Source of the DNA: Georgenia sp. EYE_87
GTDB lineage: Bacteria > Actinomycetota > Actinomycetes > Actinomycetales > Actinomycetaceae
DNA length: 64,000 nucleotides
Assembly (NCBI RefSeq): GCF_023148685.1
Contig: NZ_JAHXNL010000008.1
Span: forward strand, 1 to 64,000
Direction: 5' to 3'
Shown piece after piece: positions 2,817-8,401 of the stretch (position 1 is its first letter; every line of letters begins with the position of its first letter). The translations under genes and the position numbers were made by a program. The notes under the pieces were generated by a model. The model had not been told where the DNA came from, ran no database searches, and saw only the letters and a list, made by a program, of their open reading frames with translations.

Positions 2817-2950
2817 AGAGCCCCCGAGCAGGGGGCATCAGCTCGAGCCGCTCGACTGGGAGAATAGGGACGTTTGTCGGACACTGACTGCCTTCCGGCG
2901 ATACAGTCGTCCTCGCCATCTGCATACTCAAAGGGGAACGGCGTTATGAC
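2817..2950. repeat. 134-bp direct repeat, left copy flanking the IS
   Basis: This stretch matches 4732-4865 in 130 of 134 positions, with two mismatches near the beginning (2832 and 2834) and two near 2919-2920. It ends in ATGAC and abuts the left IS end at 2951. The sequence is the upstream region, ribosome site and start codon of the VWA gene, so this copy carries an orphan ATG that meets a TGA after one codon in the IS. I read it as a long target-site duplication. Confidence 0.9.
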
Positions 2951-2963
2951 CTGAGTTCGGTCA
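2951..2963. repeat. Left terminal inverted repeat of the IS
   Basis: CTGAGTTCGGTCA, matching the right end in 12 of 13 positions. The ancestral transposase stop codon (complement of 2961-2963) lies within this end. Confidence 0.8.
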
Positions 2964-4628
2964 TTCGGTTGGTGCCTGAGTCTTGCCGGTCGTGAGGGTG
3001 TCGATGATGGCTTGTCGGTCGGGGTCGATCTGCGGCGGGATGGTCTGGGTGGCGCCGTTGGCCGTGATGGTCGCCGAGCGCAGCGGCCGTACCTGGCGGA
3101 CGACGTTGCGGATCGCGAGCCCGGAGCGTCAGCTGAACCTCGCGGGAGACGGCCAGTGCGGTGAACACGATGGTCAGGTGGGCCTCGATCGCGTCCCCGG
3201 TCCGCACGAACATCGGCCGGGCGGCCAGATCGGTCTTGGACATTCGGAAGGACTGCTCGACGTGCCAGAGCTCGTGGTAGGACCCAACGACCTCACCGGC
3301 GGGCATCAGCCGAGCGGGGATGTTCGTCACGTAGCCCTTCAGCCCGACCAAGCGCCGGGCGCGGGTCAGGGCGGCTTCGTCGAGGCTGCGCGCGTCACCG
3401 GTGGTCCTGACGAACCGCGGGGTGCGGGCGGCCTTCTCTCCGGCGACGACGGCCCGGGCCTTGTTCTCCTGCAGAGTGAGCGTCTTTGCGTCCCGCGCCG
3501 CCCGCTTCGCCGAGTAGGACCACACCGCCCGCCACGACCCCGGATGCTGCTCCAGGTCCCAGACCGGCTCGACACGAACCGCGTCGTTGTTCTCGCTGCG
3601 CCGGCCGGTCCTGGGGGTGATGGTGTCGATGACCTGGGCGTCGGTGAACGCATCCCCGTGCCAACGGAAGTGCGAGGCCAGGTCCATCGGCGCCTTGGTC
3701 ACCCAGGAGCCGACGATGAAGCGCAGGTTCGCCTCCTCCAGCGCGGCCAGATTGGCCGCCGAGAGCATGCCGGCGTCGGCGACGACGACCATGTCCTCGA
3801 TGTTGTGCCGGTCCTGGAACTGCTTGACGATCGGCACGATCGTTGCCGTCTCGGCATGATTGCCCTCTTAGCAGCCGATCTCGAGCGGGAACCCGTGCCG
3901 GTCGACGAGCAGACCGACGACGATCTGGGGGTCGACGCGGCGTTCCTTGGAGAACCCGACCTTGCGCAGGTCGTCCTCCTTCTCCGCCTCGAAGTACAAC
4001 GTCGTCACGTCGTACAAGCACAGCGAGACATCACCGCTGGTCGCAGCATGGGTGAAGCACAACGCGGCGATCTTGTCCCGGTAAGCGCCCGGCCCCTCGC
4101 CGGCCGCGGCCCGGGCCAGGGTGCGGCGCATCGTCTTCTCGCTCGCCGGCCTGGCGCCGAGGTCGGTCAGCACCCGGGCGGTGTCCAGGATCGAGGTCGG
4201 CTCCACGATCCGGGCGATCACCAGATCCCGGAACACCACGTCACCCAGGGCGTCGAACCCTAGATCGGTGAACACCGCGGTCAGTGCGTCGTAGAGCACC
4301 GCGAGGCGGTCCCCACCACCCGCGGCGGTGCCACCGGCCCCCGCTCACGTACCGCCGGGCCCGGCTCGCCGAAGAGGGCCGGCACCCCGGGCCGGCCGAT
4401 CAGCGTCGTCCTCGGTGCCACGGGCTCGAGGCCAAGGTCGAGCTCGCCCTGTCCCGGGTCATCCAGCAGCTCCCGCGCCCGCTCGAGGAGCAGCCCGACC
4501 TCGGCCTCGGTATGCGCCGACCCGACGTGGGCGAGGATCCGTCGACGGCCCTTGACGGACTCAGCGATCTGCACGGCCGTCGCTCCCGAGGCCGTCCGTA
4601 CCCGCCGAATCCACGCCACGCGCCCCAC
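2961..4628 (-). pseudogene. IS1634-family DDE transposase, inactivated by two frameshifts and a nonsense codon
   Basis: Reading on the minus strand from 4628, the N-terminal piece ends by frameshift near 4300-4320. The second piece runs to an in-frame TAA at 3868-3870, directly after EIGC where relatives continue into an aromatic residue and EGN. The third piece continues in the same frame until a frameshift near 3125. Past that, another frame restores the expected tail ending QAPTE and a stop at 2961-2963. The DDE residues are recognisable: Asp in LYDVTTLYF, Asp in VVADAGMLS, Glu in ELWHVEQSFRMSK. Three lesions make transposition in cis unlikely. Some could be sequencing errors, but three together argue for real decay. 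Confidence 0.85.
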
Positions 4629-4717
4629 GGTAGAGCACCAATTAGTGCCTCAAAACCGCCGCCTCCACACCCATCACCGCAGGTCAACGAGCTGCCCGAT
4701 CTTGAAGCGCGGCGCGG

Positions 4718-4730
4718 TGACCAAACTCAG
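4718..4730. repeat. Right terminal inverted repeat of the IS
   Basis: Reverse complement reads CTGAGTTTGGTCA and pairs with the left end at 2951-2963 with one mismatch. One base after it, the second copy of the 134-bp direct repeat begins. Confidence 0.8.
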
Positions 4731-4731
4731 G

Positions 4732-4865
4732 AGAGCCCCCGAGCAGAGTGCATCAGCTCGAGCCGCTCGACTGGGAGAATAGGGACGTTTGTCGGACACT
4801 GACTGCCTTCCGGCGATACAGTCGTCCTCGCCACTTGCATACTCAAAGGGGAACGGCGTTATGAC
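4732..4865. repeat. 134-bp direct repeat, right copy; carries the VWA gene leader
   Basis: Counterpart of 2817-2950. It retains its native context: the AAAGGGGAAC ribosome-binding region at about 4846-4855 and the ATG at 4861 of the VWA gene. The operon therefore kept 129 bp of its own upstream DNA despite the insertion. A TANNNT-type hexamer (TACAGT, 4817-4822) could be a -10 element, but no convincing -35 accompanies it. Confidence 0.9.
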
Positions 4866-5544
4866 AGACCAGGTCGGGTACGACGGGTTCGAGTTCAAGC
4901 ACAATCCAGAAGTAGACTTCGCAGACAATCCGGAACCCCGAGTCCCGCTGCTGTTACTTCTGGACGTCTCGTACTCAATGTCAGGGAAGCCAATCGAGGA
5001 GCTGAACGACGGCCTGCGAGTGCTCGAGGAGCAGATCCGGGGCGACAGCCTCGCGAGCAAGCGCGTCGAGATCGGAATCGTCACCTTCGGACCGGTCGAG
5101 ACGAAGCAGGAGTTCGTCGGCGCCATGTCGTTCCAGGCCCCCACGCTTACGCCTCAAGGCAACACTCCAATGGGGTCCGCCATCGCCCAGGCTGTCGGGA
5201 TGGTGCACGAACGCAAGCAGGTATACCGGGACAATGGCGTCAAGTACTACCGGCCCTGGATCTTCTTGATTACTGACGGCGCGCCCACCGATTCCTGGCA
5301 CGAAGCAGCAAGCCTCGTCCGCGAGGGCGAGGCGTCCAAGAAGTTCGCCTTCTTCGCAATCGGCGTTCAGGGGGCCGACATGGACACGTTGGGGAAGATC
5401 AGTTCCCGCGCACCGCTGCCGCTACAGGGGCTGAACTTCCGTGAGCTCTTCATGTGGCTCTCAAGCTCTCTGCAGTCCGTGTCGCAGTCCGTCCCTGGCA
5501 CCGAAGTGTCGTTGGAGTCTCCCGCTGGGTGGGCCGCGGTGTGA
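4861..5544 (+). CDS. VWA domain protein, YegL/TerY-like, first gene of a VWA-PP2C-kinase triad
   Basis: Single von Willebrand factor A domain of 227 aa. The metal-ion-dependent adhesion site is complete: DVSYS at residues 35-39 (DxSxS), Thr 102 in NTPMG and Asp 139 in ITDG. There is no signal peptide or membrane segment, so it is probably cytoplasmic. ATG 4861 is chosen because AAAGGGG precedes it at a normal distance; an in-frame start at 4789 has no ribosome site. Its stop overlaps the PP2C start (GTGA). E. coli YegL and TerY are similar in length and context. Metal-dependent binding to a partner is likely, but the partner is unknown. Confidence 0.88.
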
Positions 5545-6467
5545 CGTGGCGCGTGCTCTTCGCGTCCCAGGAGGGCACATCCCATAGCGCTTCGGGAGTC
5601 CCGTGCCAGGACGACTGCTGGGCCAGCGTCGAGGAAGTCGACGGTGCGGCGCTCCTAACAATATTTGTCGCCGACGGGGCTGGCTCGGCCAGTCGTGGGC
5701 ATGACGGGGCGCAGAATGCAGTGCGCGAGGCGATCGCCTTCGTCACCAGCAGGGCGCACGACGATCTTCCCGGGCTCTTCACGGAAACTTCCGGACGCGA
5801 CCTTGTAAACGCAGTTCGTGGTGCTCTAACGGCGCAGAGCGATAACTCCGGCATACCTATCCGTGAGTACGCGTGCACCTTCTTGGCGGTACTTTCGTCC
5901 GCCGAGCACGGCACCTTGGCGGTCCAGATCGGCGATGGCGGCATAGTCCTCGATTTCGGTAATGGTCTTTTCGTCCCGATCGAACCGATGGGAGGAGAAT
6001 ACGCCAATGCGACTCGCTTCGTGACCGAGGCCGACGCCCATGAGATCGTCGAAGTTCGTCATTACGATAAGAGTGCGGTTAGAGCGGCAGCCTTCACTGA
6101 CGGTTTGGAACCATTAGCCTTAAATCAGGCAGAGAACACAGCTCACCCCCGGTTCTTCGCCCCCTTCTTCGACTCATTATCCTCACCTACGACGCCGGAC
6201 GAAGAATTCTGCTGGCAGGACAGGCTGACCGGCGCCCTCGTACGGTTCCTCAATAGCGACGCGGTGAATAGTCGGACAGACGACGACAAGACTTTGGCGT
6301 TGGCGGTTCACCAGGGCGAGAAGCAGGTCGTGACGCCCGGCGGAGCGAATCATGAGCAGGACAACCCGTCCCCTCTCGGTCAGGATGGGGCTAACGCATA
6401 TACTCCCGACGACCGAGACAACCGTGGTGTCAACGGGATAAAAATCGACACTGAGGTAACACCATGA
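5541..6467 (+). CDS. PP2C-family Ser/Thr phosphatase, YegK-like
   Basis: Metal-dependent phosphatase of 308 aa, expected to counteract the kinase encoded next. Motifs appear in order: ADGAGSA (residues 44-50, metal-binding Asp and Gly), QIGDGG (129-134), FTDG (185-188) and DDDKT (247-251, the C-terminal Asp pair). About 50 residues after the domain are polar and probably disordered. The start is GTG 5541, overlapping the VWA stop; the frame stays open upstream to 5454 but would run inside the VWA gene. The stop overlaps the kinase start (ATGA at 6464). ATA and TTA codons occur, unlike most of the window, suggesting transfer. Confidence 0.85.
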
Positions 6468-8401
6468 GCACCGTCCTTGTTACAGGATCCGGAACTCCCG
6501 TCAAGCTCGCCAAGGAGATAGGCCGTGGCGGCGAGGGATCTGTCTTTACAATTTCAGCCAGGCCCGACCGCGTGGCGAAGGTGTATCACAGGCCGCCGGA
6601 CAGAGAGCGCCAGTCGAAGCTGCAGCTCATGGCAAACAACGCCGACGACACTCTCCTAAGTTTCGTCGCGTGGCCAGAAACAACCCTTCACGACCAAAGG
6701 GGAACGGTTGTTGGGTTTGTGATGCCAAAGCTCGCAGACGACCAAGCTCCAGTCCACGCCTTCTACAGCCCCGCCCACCGCAAGGCTGAACACCCAGGTG
6801 CCACCTGGGAGTTTCTCTTGCTGGCAGCGCGCAACACAGCGGCGGCCTTCGCTGTCGTGCACAATCACGGGCACGTCATCGGGGACGTGAACCAGAACGG
6901 GATATACGTTGCTAAGGATGCCCGAATATCGCTAGTGGACGCCGACTCCTTCCAGATTTCCGACCCCCGCGGCTCGTTGTATCGGTGCAAGGTGGGCGTA
7001 CCTGAGTTCACCCCTCCCGAACTGCAGGACAGTCCATCGTTAGCGGCCGTGACACGTGCGCCCAATCACGACAATTTCGGTTTAGCCGTCCTAATATTTC
7101 ATTTGCTCTTCGCAGGACGCCACCCCTATGCCGGGGTTCCACTGCTCGACCATGTCGGCGCAGATATGACCACCGACATCCGCCACCTTAGGTACGCGTA
7201 CAGCGCGGACAGCCAAAGCCGAGGACTAACTCCACCGCCGCGAAGCGTGCCCGCCTCAGTTGTCCCGGGCGAGGTGCAGAAAATGTTCTACGAGGCGTTC
7301 ACTGAGAAGGGCCTCCAGGGCGGCCGGCCGTCAGCGACGCAGTGGAAGCACGCTTTAGATGAGGTACGCCGCTCCATCCGGAACTGCAACGTCAGCCGAA
7401 CGCACCGCTTCCCCGGCAACCTCCGTGCCTGCCCGTGGTGCGCCCTCGAAGGGCAGGGTGTCACTCTTTTCATCGATCTAGGCACCAAGGTCACCTATAC
7501 CCAGTCTGGCTTCGTCTTGGAGAAGGCTTGGGCACTCGTCGAGCGCGTGCAGGCTCCCCCTCCTATACCCCAACCCGTCCCTGAACGCATTGACGTCGAG
7601 GCGAAGCCACTCCCTCCGGGTGTGCCCTCCCGTGGCAACATCAGAGTCCTGCGCATCTTGGTCGTCGCCATAACGGTCGGTCTCGTCGCAGGTTTGCCCG
7701 ACCTCGCCTTGTGGATGTTCCTTGTCGGTGTGGCGGGGTGGGCCGGCGTCACCGCCCGCGCAAAGCCCCTAAAAGCCGAGCGAAGGTCGCGCGAAGCGGA
7801 GCTGCAAGCCGCTCAGGAAGAGTTTCAGAGACAGACGTCGCGTCTGGAACGAGAGACCATCGGCCGGTTCCACTCGCGCAGGCAAGAGCTCGCTGGCCTC
7901 GCTGACGAGTACCGGCATCTCGCAGAGTTTGAGCGGCGGCAACTTGCGAAGCTGGACGCCACAGTGCGCGAGCGGCAGCTTCTGCGGCACCTCCAGGCCG
8001 CCTTCATCGACACGGCGAACATTCGGGGGCTCGGCCCAACTCGGAAGGCCGCGTTACGGTCTTTCGGCATCGAAACTGCAGCGGACATAGACGCGACAAG
8101 GATTCGTCAGGTCCGCGGTTTCGGAGATGCTCTCACCCACAGCATGGTCGCCTGGCGCCGTGAACAAGAGCGCAGGTTCCGCTTCGATCCGAACCACCCG
8201 TCGATCAAGGCCGACCGCGACGCCACCAAGGCGACGTTTCAAGTACGGCGCCGCCTGATCGAGCAGCAACTTCAGATGGCGCCTAACGAGCTCAGCCGCA
8301 TAGCACGAGAGGCTTCGGCGCGTGCCGCTGTCATTCAGCCGCATCTCGAGGGCGCAGCACAGCGTCTTGCGCAGGCACGGACGGACCTCCGCATGGCCTA
8401 A
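6464..8401 (+). CDS. Protein kinase with zinc-knuckle, membrane segment, coiled coil and helix-hairpin-helix, YegI-like
   Basis: 645 aa, close to E. coli YegI in length and layout. The kinase domain (about 15-300) has a glycine loop GRGGEG (20-25), Lys 39, catalytic loop GDVNQNG (140-146), a DAD in place of DFG (159-161) and PPE (184-186). Then come C307 with CPWC (322-325), a possible metal knuckle; a hydrophobic stretch at about 393-430, probably one or two membrane segments; a charged coiled coil at about 435-510; and two hairpin motifs (IRGLGPTRK 519-527, VRGFGDA 549-555), a fold that usually binds DNA. The family is the uncharacterised kinase-plus-HhH group linked with VWA and PP2C partners. 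Substrate and trigger are unknown. Confidence 0.87.
   Translation: MSTVLVTGSGTPVKLAKEIGRGGEGSVFTISARPDRVAKVYHRPPDRERQSKLQLMANNADDTLLSFVAWPETTLHDQRGTVVGFVMPKLADDQAPVHAFYSPAHRKAEHPGATWEFLLLAARNTAAAFAVVHNHGHVIGDVNQNGIYVAKDARISLVDADSFQISDPRGSLYRCKVGVPEFTPPELQDSPSLAAVTRAPNHDNFGLAVLIFHLLFAGRHPYAGVPLLDHVGADMTTDIRHLRYAYSADSQSRGLTPPPRSVPASVVPGEVQKMFYEAFTEKGLQGGRPSATQWKHALDEVRRSIRNCNVSRTHRFPGNLRACPWCALEGQGVTLFIDLGTKVTYTQSGFVLEKAWALVERVQAPPPIPQPVPERIDVEAKPLPPGVPSRGNIRVLRILVVAITVGLVAGLPDLALWMFLVGVAGWAGVTARAKPLKAERRSREAELQAAQEEFQRQTSRLERETIGRFHSRRQELAGLADEYRHLAEFERRQLAKLDATVRERQLLRHLQAAFIDTANIRGLGPTRKAALRSFGIETAADIDATRIRQVRGFGDALTHSMVAWRREQERRFRFDPNHPSIKADRDATKATFQVRRRLIEQQLQMAPNELSRIAREASARAAVIQPHLEGAAQRLAQARTDLRMA

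Follow-up and report, generated by a model that had tools for sequence, protein, structure and literature searches.

The window studied here, a stretch of 64,000 nt from Georgenia sp. EYE_87, carries an insertion sequence (IS) of the IS1634 family between two copies of a long direct repeat (DR). According to the accessible text of PMC2266710, duplications of 5–6 bp are typical of this family, with IS1549 and IS1634 as recorded exceptions (8–514 bp). The long and variable repeats of these two elements were described in 1998–1999 (reference list of PMC2266710), and the same text indicated no mechanistic model for long repeats as of 2008. Our search of the open literature, which covers it incompletely, found no later model. 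How, then, was a repeat of this length made at this locus?

The element and its flanking repeats

A preliminary description of the locus had reported a 134-bp target duplication (2817–2950 and 4732–4865) matching at 130 positions, with IS ends abutting it and one spare base at the right end. Realignment gave the same 130 identities in 134 positions (mismatches at 2832, 2834, 2919 and 2920). The abutment also stood, and was exact at both ends; the spare base and the 134th base of the repeat did not. Related copies begin with CC and finish with GG. The window IS, with ends CCTGA...TCAGG set from these copies, thus spans 2950–4731 (1782 bp), and the DR is 133 bp long (2817–2949 and 4732–4864, 4 mismatches) without a spare base. 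Base 2950 is the terminal C of the IS, and base 4731, the supposed spare base, is its terminal G. The matching C at 4865 is the next base of the target, a position at which C was the most frequent base (26 of 48 leader sites, defined below). The terminal inverted repeats (TIR) agree at 13 of 16 positions, with ends CCTGAGTT...AACTCAGG.

A search of all 38 contigs of the 4.35-Mb assembly found the repeat sequence in these two places only. The repeat scored 117, compared with a best score of 4 among 200 shuffles of the right flank in which the IS ends were held fixed. The features are collected in Table 1.

Table 1. The IS, its target duplication and the adjoining gene (positions in the window)
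Feature	Position	Strand	Remarks
IS1634-family IS, decayed	2950–4731	-	Transposase on minus strand; 1782 bp
Left copy of 133-bp target duplication	2817–2949	.	129/133 identical to 4732–4864
Right copy of target duplication	4732–4864	.	Retains VWA gene upstream region and start codon
IRR, TIR at transposase-stop side	2950–2965	+	Putative leader end, joined after ...TTATGA
IRL, TIR at transposase-start side	4716–4731	-	Putative follower end, joined to AGAGCC
Transposase remnant with DDE_Tnp_1	2944–3837	-	PF01609, 36.3 bits; NF033559, 200.7 bits
Transposase remnant, middle	3868–4299	-	NF033559, 114.4 bits
Transposase remnant, N-terminal, other frame	4281–4628	-	Open frame
VWA-domain gene	4861–5544	+	Pfam VWA, 39.6 bits on 4789–5544; ATG at 4861

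The open frame of the first remnant extends 6 bases beyond the IS end. The N-terminal remnant alone matched no Pfam or NCBIfam family, and it lies within the tblastn match of an intact transposase from elsewhere in the genome (see below). The final bases of the right repeat copy include the start codon of the VWA gene, and a sigma-70 scan found no promoter in the repeat.

The surroundings include an McrBC-like pair (an AAA_5 protein and McrC) in 33–2482, beside a run of VWA, PP2C and 645-aa proteins in 4861–8401. The 645-aa protein gave weak lanthionine-synthetase-type matches only. This run may resemble a TerY-P-type triad.

Family assignment and the second copy

The earlier assignment to the IS1634 family was borne out by the NCBIfam model NF033559 (IS1634), for which two of the three transposase fragments scored above the cut-off of 100 bits. 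In the table of PMC2266710 the family is given a length of 1500–2000 bp and ends of the form C-----YT. The window IS falls within this length, and both of its ends read inward CCTGAGTT. Its catalytic residues are not intact in one frame, as internal stops divide the gene into three fragments; this is decay and does not exclude the element from the family. The flanking duplication, at 133 bp, is not of the typical AT-rich type of 5–6 bp. It is of the IS1549/IS1634-like type, as the group has long, variable and copy-specific direct repeats, which in two relatives were made by the insertion. The window element itself is ordinary.

A second copy, on contig C20 of the same genome, is 80% identical, encodes an intact transposase of 550 aa and is flanked by a perfect 45-bp repeat. 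By DNA search it was the only other full copy, so the suggested search for further copies with long flanking repeats had a positive outcome. A transposase search counted five matches in the genome, the two listed being the window and C20 copies. The 4 mismatches in 133 bp, together with the broken transposase, make the earlier view that the insertion is not recent plausible.

Survey of related copies

Loci were collected by transposase searches and plasmid matches, and a subset of these loci was fetched and scored by a single script. The first transposase search led to 60 fetched regions, near full length among the matches listed. From a later one, the best 80 of 541 matches were used. Transposase matches spanning less than 900 bases were left out. 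For plasmids, 14 of 118 records were fetched around one match; one further plasmid was fetched mostly whole, and its two copies were without recognised ends.

Unclear ends, short flanks and duplication were grounds for dropping a copy from the counts, and 148 actinobacterial copies remained. Batch 1 had 163 rows, of which 96 were kept (dropped: 26 without recognised ends, 34 with a weak inverted repeat, 1 with a bad end and 6 with a short flank); its duplicates had been left out without a row. Batch 2 had 59 rows and 26 kept (dropped: 18 duplicates, 5 without recognised ends, 8 weak inverted repeats, 0 bad ends, 2 short flanks). Batch 3 had 76 rows and 26 kept (29, 9, 11, 1 and 0 dropped in the same order). 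Long repeats were also present among the dropped rows, for example of 208 bp (L143) and 28 bp (L130). L037, a usable copy from the leftovers of batch 1, had a 63-bp repeat with 1 mismatch and stayed outside the counts.

Two loci from genus relatives, L096 (G005) and L095 (G001), were IS1634-like with ends unlike CCTGA and are likewise outside the counts. The flanking repeat of L096 is about 205 bp long with 5 mismatches.

In a detection test of the scoring, implanted repeats of 6–18 bp were recovered in 338 of 338 trials. In the null test, 675 cases yielded 2 'five' calls and 1 'mid' call. A set of tests was fixed before batch 2 was inspected, and a negative score correlation was predicted before batch 3.

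Two modes of repeat length

Among the 148 copies, 34 had a repeat of exactly 5 bp, none had one of 6–18 bp, 82 had one of 19–937 bp, and 32 had no clear repeat. The long class had a median of 100.5 bp; 71 of its 82 repeats were perfect, and 71 were shorter than 300 bp. Long repeats are thus not rare in this related group, and the earlier remark that the window presents a rare case in an actinomycete was wrong. Short repeats had been named as possible evidence against a long target duplication. Since exact 5-bp repeats accompany 34 of the 148 copies, short repeats elsewhere would not refute it.

The same division appeared in batch 2 (9 of 5 bp, 0 of 6–18 bp, 13 long, 4 without a repeat) and in batch 3 (11, 0, 11 and 4). 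The gap at 6–18 bp is not significant alone (2.6 expected from a lognormal fit, P(0) = 0.07), and IS1549 once made a 13-bp repeat, as described in the accessible text of PMC10066036. What stands firmly in this pattern is the excess of repeats of exactly 5 bp; the gap by itself is only suggestive.

Both kinds of repeat were made by the same enzyme. Identical transposases in one genome were associated with repeats of 47, 5, 67, 5, 57 and 5 bp, and another identical set with 5, 21 and 5 bp. A tree restricted to copies with a repeat covered 81 distinct transposases. Two of its clades, chosen after the tree had been viewed, had 5-bp repeats in 14 of 14 insertions with a repeat; the remainder of the 116 comprised 20 of 5 bp and 82 long. 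A single host family contained both kinds (batch 3), an indication that the difference lies with the transposase and not the host. Members of the 5-bp-only clades are L209, L211, L216, L219, L225 and L227, and L287–L289, L323–L325 and L330.

One region (L062, genome G037) contains two IS1634 copies with the same transposase, in the same orientation and 340 bp apart (2918–4650 and 4991–6723). One has a 57-bp repeat and the other a 5-bp repeat. Insertion at a local hot spot, or local hopping, may explain the pair.

Of the 32 copies in the no-repeat class, 23 lacked any match and 9 had a short or poor one (for example 29 bp with 3 mismatches). Site scores (see below) were positive at both ends in 12 of the 32, compared with 3 of the 82 long copies. 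This suggested that some are probably recombinants or parts of composite elements, like the pair L049–L050. Others could be deletions, produced if the second end joined on the other side of the first.

That pair (L049, 2886–4642, and L050, 2686–4433; G103, about 407.6–413.8 kb) consists of two non-identical IS1634 copies that share one orientation. The outer flanks share the 5-bp sequence TCTGA and neither copy alone has a repeat, so that the pair looks like a composite transposon. In another region (L262, 42584–47083 of plasmid NZ_CP129463), two annotated transposases of the same protein accession lie inverted around a shorter IS1634 transposase gene; the IS ends of this pair were not recognised by the scoring script.

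Empty sites

Counterparts of an insertion site that lack the IS were found for two relatives on Rhodococcus plasmids. The 102-bp repeat of L194 was present as a single copy in the PD04 plasmid, with 99.9% identity across the joined flanks, and was also single in plasmid pSID (90.7% over the aligned part, 631 of 702 bases). The 147-bp repeat of L189 was single in plasmid pDF02 (95.6%). The single copy in the empty counterparts of both insertions showed that the insertion makes the repeat. Together with the perfect 45-bp repeat at C20, this supports the earlier interpretation of the window repeat as a target duplication made by insertion. An empty site with two copies, the outcome that would have spoken against it, was not encountered.

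For the window itself, the 8 other genomes of the genus yielded no empty site. A search of 213 family genomes, with 2 candidates scored in each, returned the genome itself and weak matches of 27, 33 and 52 bases. No empty site was found for the L187 insertion, for the no-repeat copies L191 and L192 in the plasmid collection, or for the no-repeat copy L042 in 9 genus genomes.

Unequal joining sites at the two ends

For each end, the joining site consisted of the bases beside the IS end plus those on the far side of the repeat. TCNGA targets were favoured in the 5-bp class. After inspection of the data, a half-site was defined as T at -5 together with a purine at each of -2 and -1. None of the 82 long copies carried it at both ends; 25 had it at IRL alone, 29 at IRR alone and 28 at neither end (p = 1.8e-6). 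Among the 34 copies of the 5-bp class, 13 had it at both ends, 14 at one and 7 at neither. The long copies of batch 2 had it at both ends in 0, at one in 9 and at neither in 4, and those of batch 3 in 0, 9 and 2.

Single positions were also mutually exclusive between the ends, with p = 1.2e-4 for T at -5 and p = 0.0019 for G or C at -2. A at -1 alone was not exclusive (both 20, IRL only 24, IRR only 20, neither 18; p = 0.66). A preset motif test, T at -5 at IRL, failed in batch 2 (4 of 12, p = 0.16). An early reading, in which both ends of long copies had the same motif, was dropped for one in which a leader end with the better site is paired with a follower end with the worse site.

The two-sided site test covered 78 of the 82 long copies, as the sequence there was incomplete in 4. 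The scores of the two ends were anticorrelated (rho -0.58, n = 78), also with position -2 omitted (rho -0.51, p = 1.4e-6). The predicted negative correlation was -0.58 in batch 3 (p = 0.06) and -0.51 in batches 2 and 3 together (p = 0.015). Counting matches instead of scoring gave rho -0.61 in batch 3 (p = 0.046), +0.44 in batch 2 (not significant, n = 11), and -0.16 in the two together (p = 0.48, n = 22).

For the better end, the median local percentile was 97 (67 copies, batches 1 and 2), and the scores of the worse end were like those of random DNA (p = 0.74). The worse-end score was positive in 3 of 82 long copies, compared with 33 of 34 copies of the 5-bp class. The follower sites nevertheless had a signature of their own, C at -2, C at +1 and G at +2. 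C at -2 was present in 37 of 48 followers; with position -2 kept outside the assignment of ends it was present in 47 of 78 (p = 2.7e-7), against 32% in a random-pair control. By batch it was found in 9 of 11 (batch 3) and 4 of 11 (batch 2), or 13 of 22 together (p = 0.008). The no-repeat class showed no such enrichment (12 of 32). The IS tip shared 0–1 base of microhomology with the target in 72 of 78 followers and 73 of 78 leaders.

The leader role can be taken by either IS end. In the window the site score assigned it to IRR (3.2, compared with -7.4 at IRL). The follower site, read outward, is GGCTCT/AGC (the slash marks the joining point), with C at -2.

Proposed mechanism

We propose that this IS1634-family insertion duplicated 133 bp because its two ends were joined to opposite strands in separate, uncoupled strand transfers at unequal sites, and repair then copied the interval. 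From the repeats and joining sites of finished insertions, which form the evidence base, we put the probability of this reading at roughly 55%. The transposase would join the leader end to one strand at a preferred, TCNGA-like site. If the partner end joined the other strand in concert, 5 bp away, a 5-bp repeat would result. Should this concert fail, the follower end would join the opposite strand 19–937 bp away with a different, weaker preference, the follower signature given above. Host polymerase would then extend the 3'-OH ends of the target with strand displacement, so that the interval comes to flank the IS on each side. At the window locus the left end (IRR) would have been the leader, joined after TTATGA where the VWA gene begins, and the right end (IRL) the follower. 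The VWA gene has thus retained its start codon and the 133 bp ending there. Which step comes first, which way synthesis runs and what the polymerase does are what we infer from such products.

A broader reading would extend this scheme to a large actinobacterial IS1634-family group with two pathways. One would be the concerted reaction at TCNGA, giving 5 bp. The other would be uncoupled, with either end committing first at a canonical site and its partner captured later on the opposite strand, at a CN/CG-type site and perhaps at an advancing fork of displacement synthesis; the length of the DR would then reflect the distance synthesised by the time of this second capture, and the transposase lineage would set the ratio of the pathways. 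We hold this broader reading tentatively, at somewhat less than even odds. Confidence in both uncoupled joining and the two-pathway reading was lowered by the results for A at -1 and for the match counts. Neither end was canonical in 28 of the 82 long copies.

A link to DNA synthesis is made plausible by an IS1634-family transposase of Acidiphilium, which binds the replication clamp, with tighter binding raising transposition (accessible text of PMC4549789). The legend in that source mentions only 6-base sequences, so clamp binding alone seems insufficient for long repeats. A C-terminal clamp-binding pattern, QxxLx, was present in 48 of 129 transposases of our survey.

Alternative explanations

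This clamp binding, in the part of PMC4549789 cited, is also in keeping with an alternative that we consider unlikely, in which the two ends attack two sister chromatids or fork arms at different positions. The offset would become the repeat, and the mirror product would be a deletion; some of the no-repeat copies may be such deletions. Deletions would be expected to equal repeats in number, but the 82 repeats stood against at most 32 no-repeat copies, 12 of them with two canonical-looking ends. Selection against deletions could account for the deficit. The orientation of the IS relative to replication showed no bias among 44 scored copies in complete genomes (long class, 18 co-directional and 13 head-on; 5-bp class, 3 and 8), with the origin placed by dnaA and the terminus assumed to lie opposite.

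Also unlikely, and ranking next, is a single concerted reaction with a wide stagger, in which one complex makes distant cuts with both ends on a melted or looped stretch. The direction would be that of the 5-bp stagger, and C at +1 and G at +2 are common to leader and follower sites. The two ends differ in motif, however, and the lengths span 19–937 bp. Overall, the lengths showed no helical phasing (p = 0.21 for the 56 repeats of up to 150 bp), although nominal p values of 0.02–0.05 were obtained in batch 1 at some cut-offs and periods, and 0.07 in batch 2 (n = 7). The GC content of the repeats did not differ from that of the flanks (batch 1, n = 53, p = 0.31).

It is very improbable that two nearby 5-bp insertions on sister chromosomes gave rise to the long repeats by unequal homologous recombination. 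Such recombination would give one product with the IS flanked by the interval and a reciprocal deletion, could generate any repeat length, and should also leave copies without a repeat, as were indeed observed (32 of 148); it may account for the 12 of these with positive scores at both ends. It also predicts sites of the 5-bp type at both ends. The ends of long copies were unlike such sites, both in the worse-end scores (positive in 3 of 82, against 33 of 34) and in the half-site (two per copy in 0 of 82, against 13 of 34), which counts against recombination of two ordinary insertions, as does the concentration of long repeats below 300 bp (71 of 82).

That the IS entered an older tandem duplication is hardly credible: the absence of a window empty site from the searched genomes (8 of the genus, 213 of the family) would allow it, but the exact abutment at both IS ends, the perfect 45-bp repeat at C20, the long repeats in 82 of 148 copies, and the empty sites of two related insertions, with one copy and not two, all count against repeats that pre-date the IS.

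Relation to known systems and significance

The preferred reading, uncoupled joining at unequal sites, has a parallel in outline in CRISPR spacer acquisition. There Cas1-Cas2 makes the first joining at a preferred site and the second on the opposite strand at a distance, and gap filling duplicates the interval. The enzyme is unrelated, however, and the distance is fixed by a ruler.

IS1549 of the actinobacterium Mycobacterium smegmatis and IS1634 of Mycoplasma mycoides share with the window group the family and the long, variable DRs. Compared with these two as they are described in the sources available, the surveyed elements also make exact 5-bp repeats, reach 937 bp and use unequal sites. 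Other members have short repeats only in their published descriptions, as far as these are accessible: ISGka5 has a 6-bp repeat (PMC8024623), ISPfe2 has a 6-bp repeat (PMC3281130), and the Acidiphilium IS1634 has three 6-base sequences, termed inverted repeats in the legend (PMC4549789). The two 5-bp-only clades of our survey behave like these.

As far as our searches of the open literature reach, the pattern of two modes with unequal ends appears to be undescribed. The two modes, the lack of any long copy with two canonical ends (0 of 82) and the signature of the second end turn the puzzle of 1998–1999 into testable predictions. The survey also points out transposase clades of differing behaviour, which are open to comparison. 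For the host, a long repeat can spare the target: the VWA gene, although hit at its start codon, keeps that codon and the 133 bp that end there.
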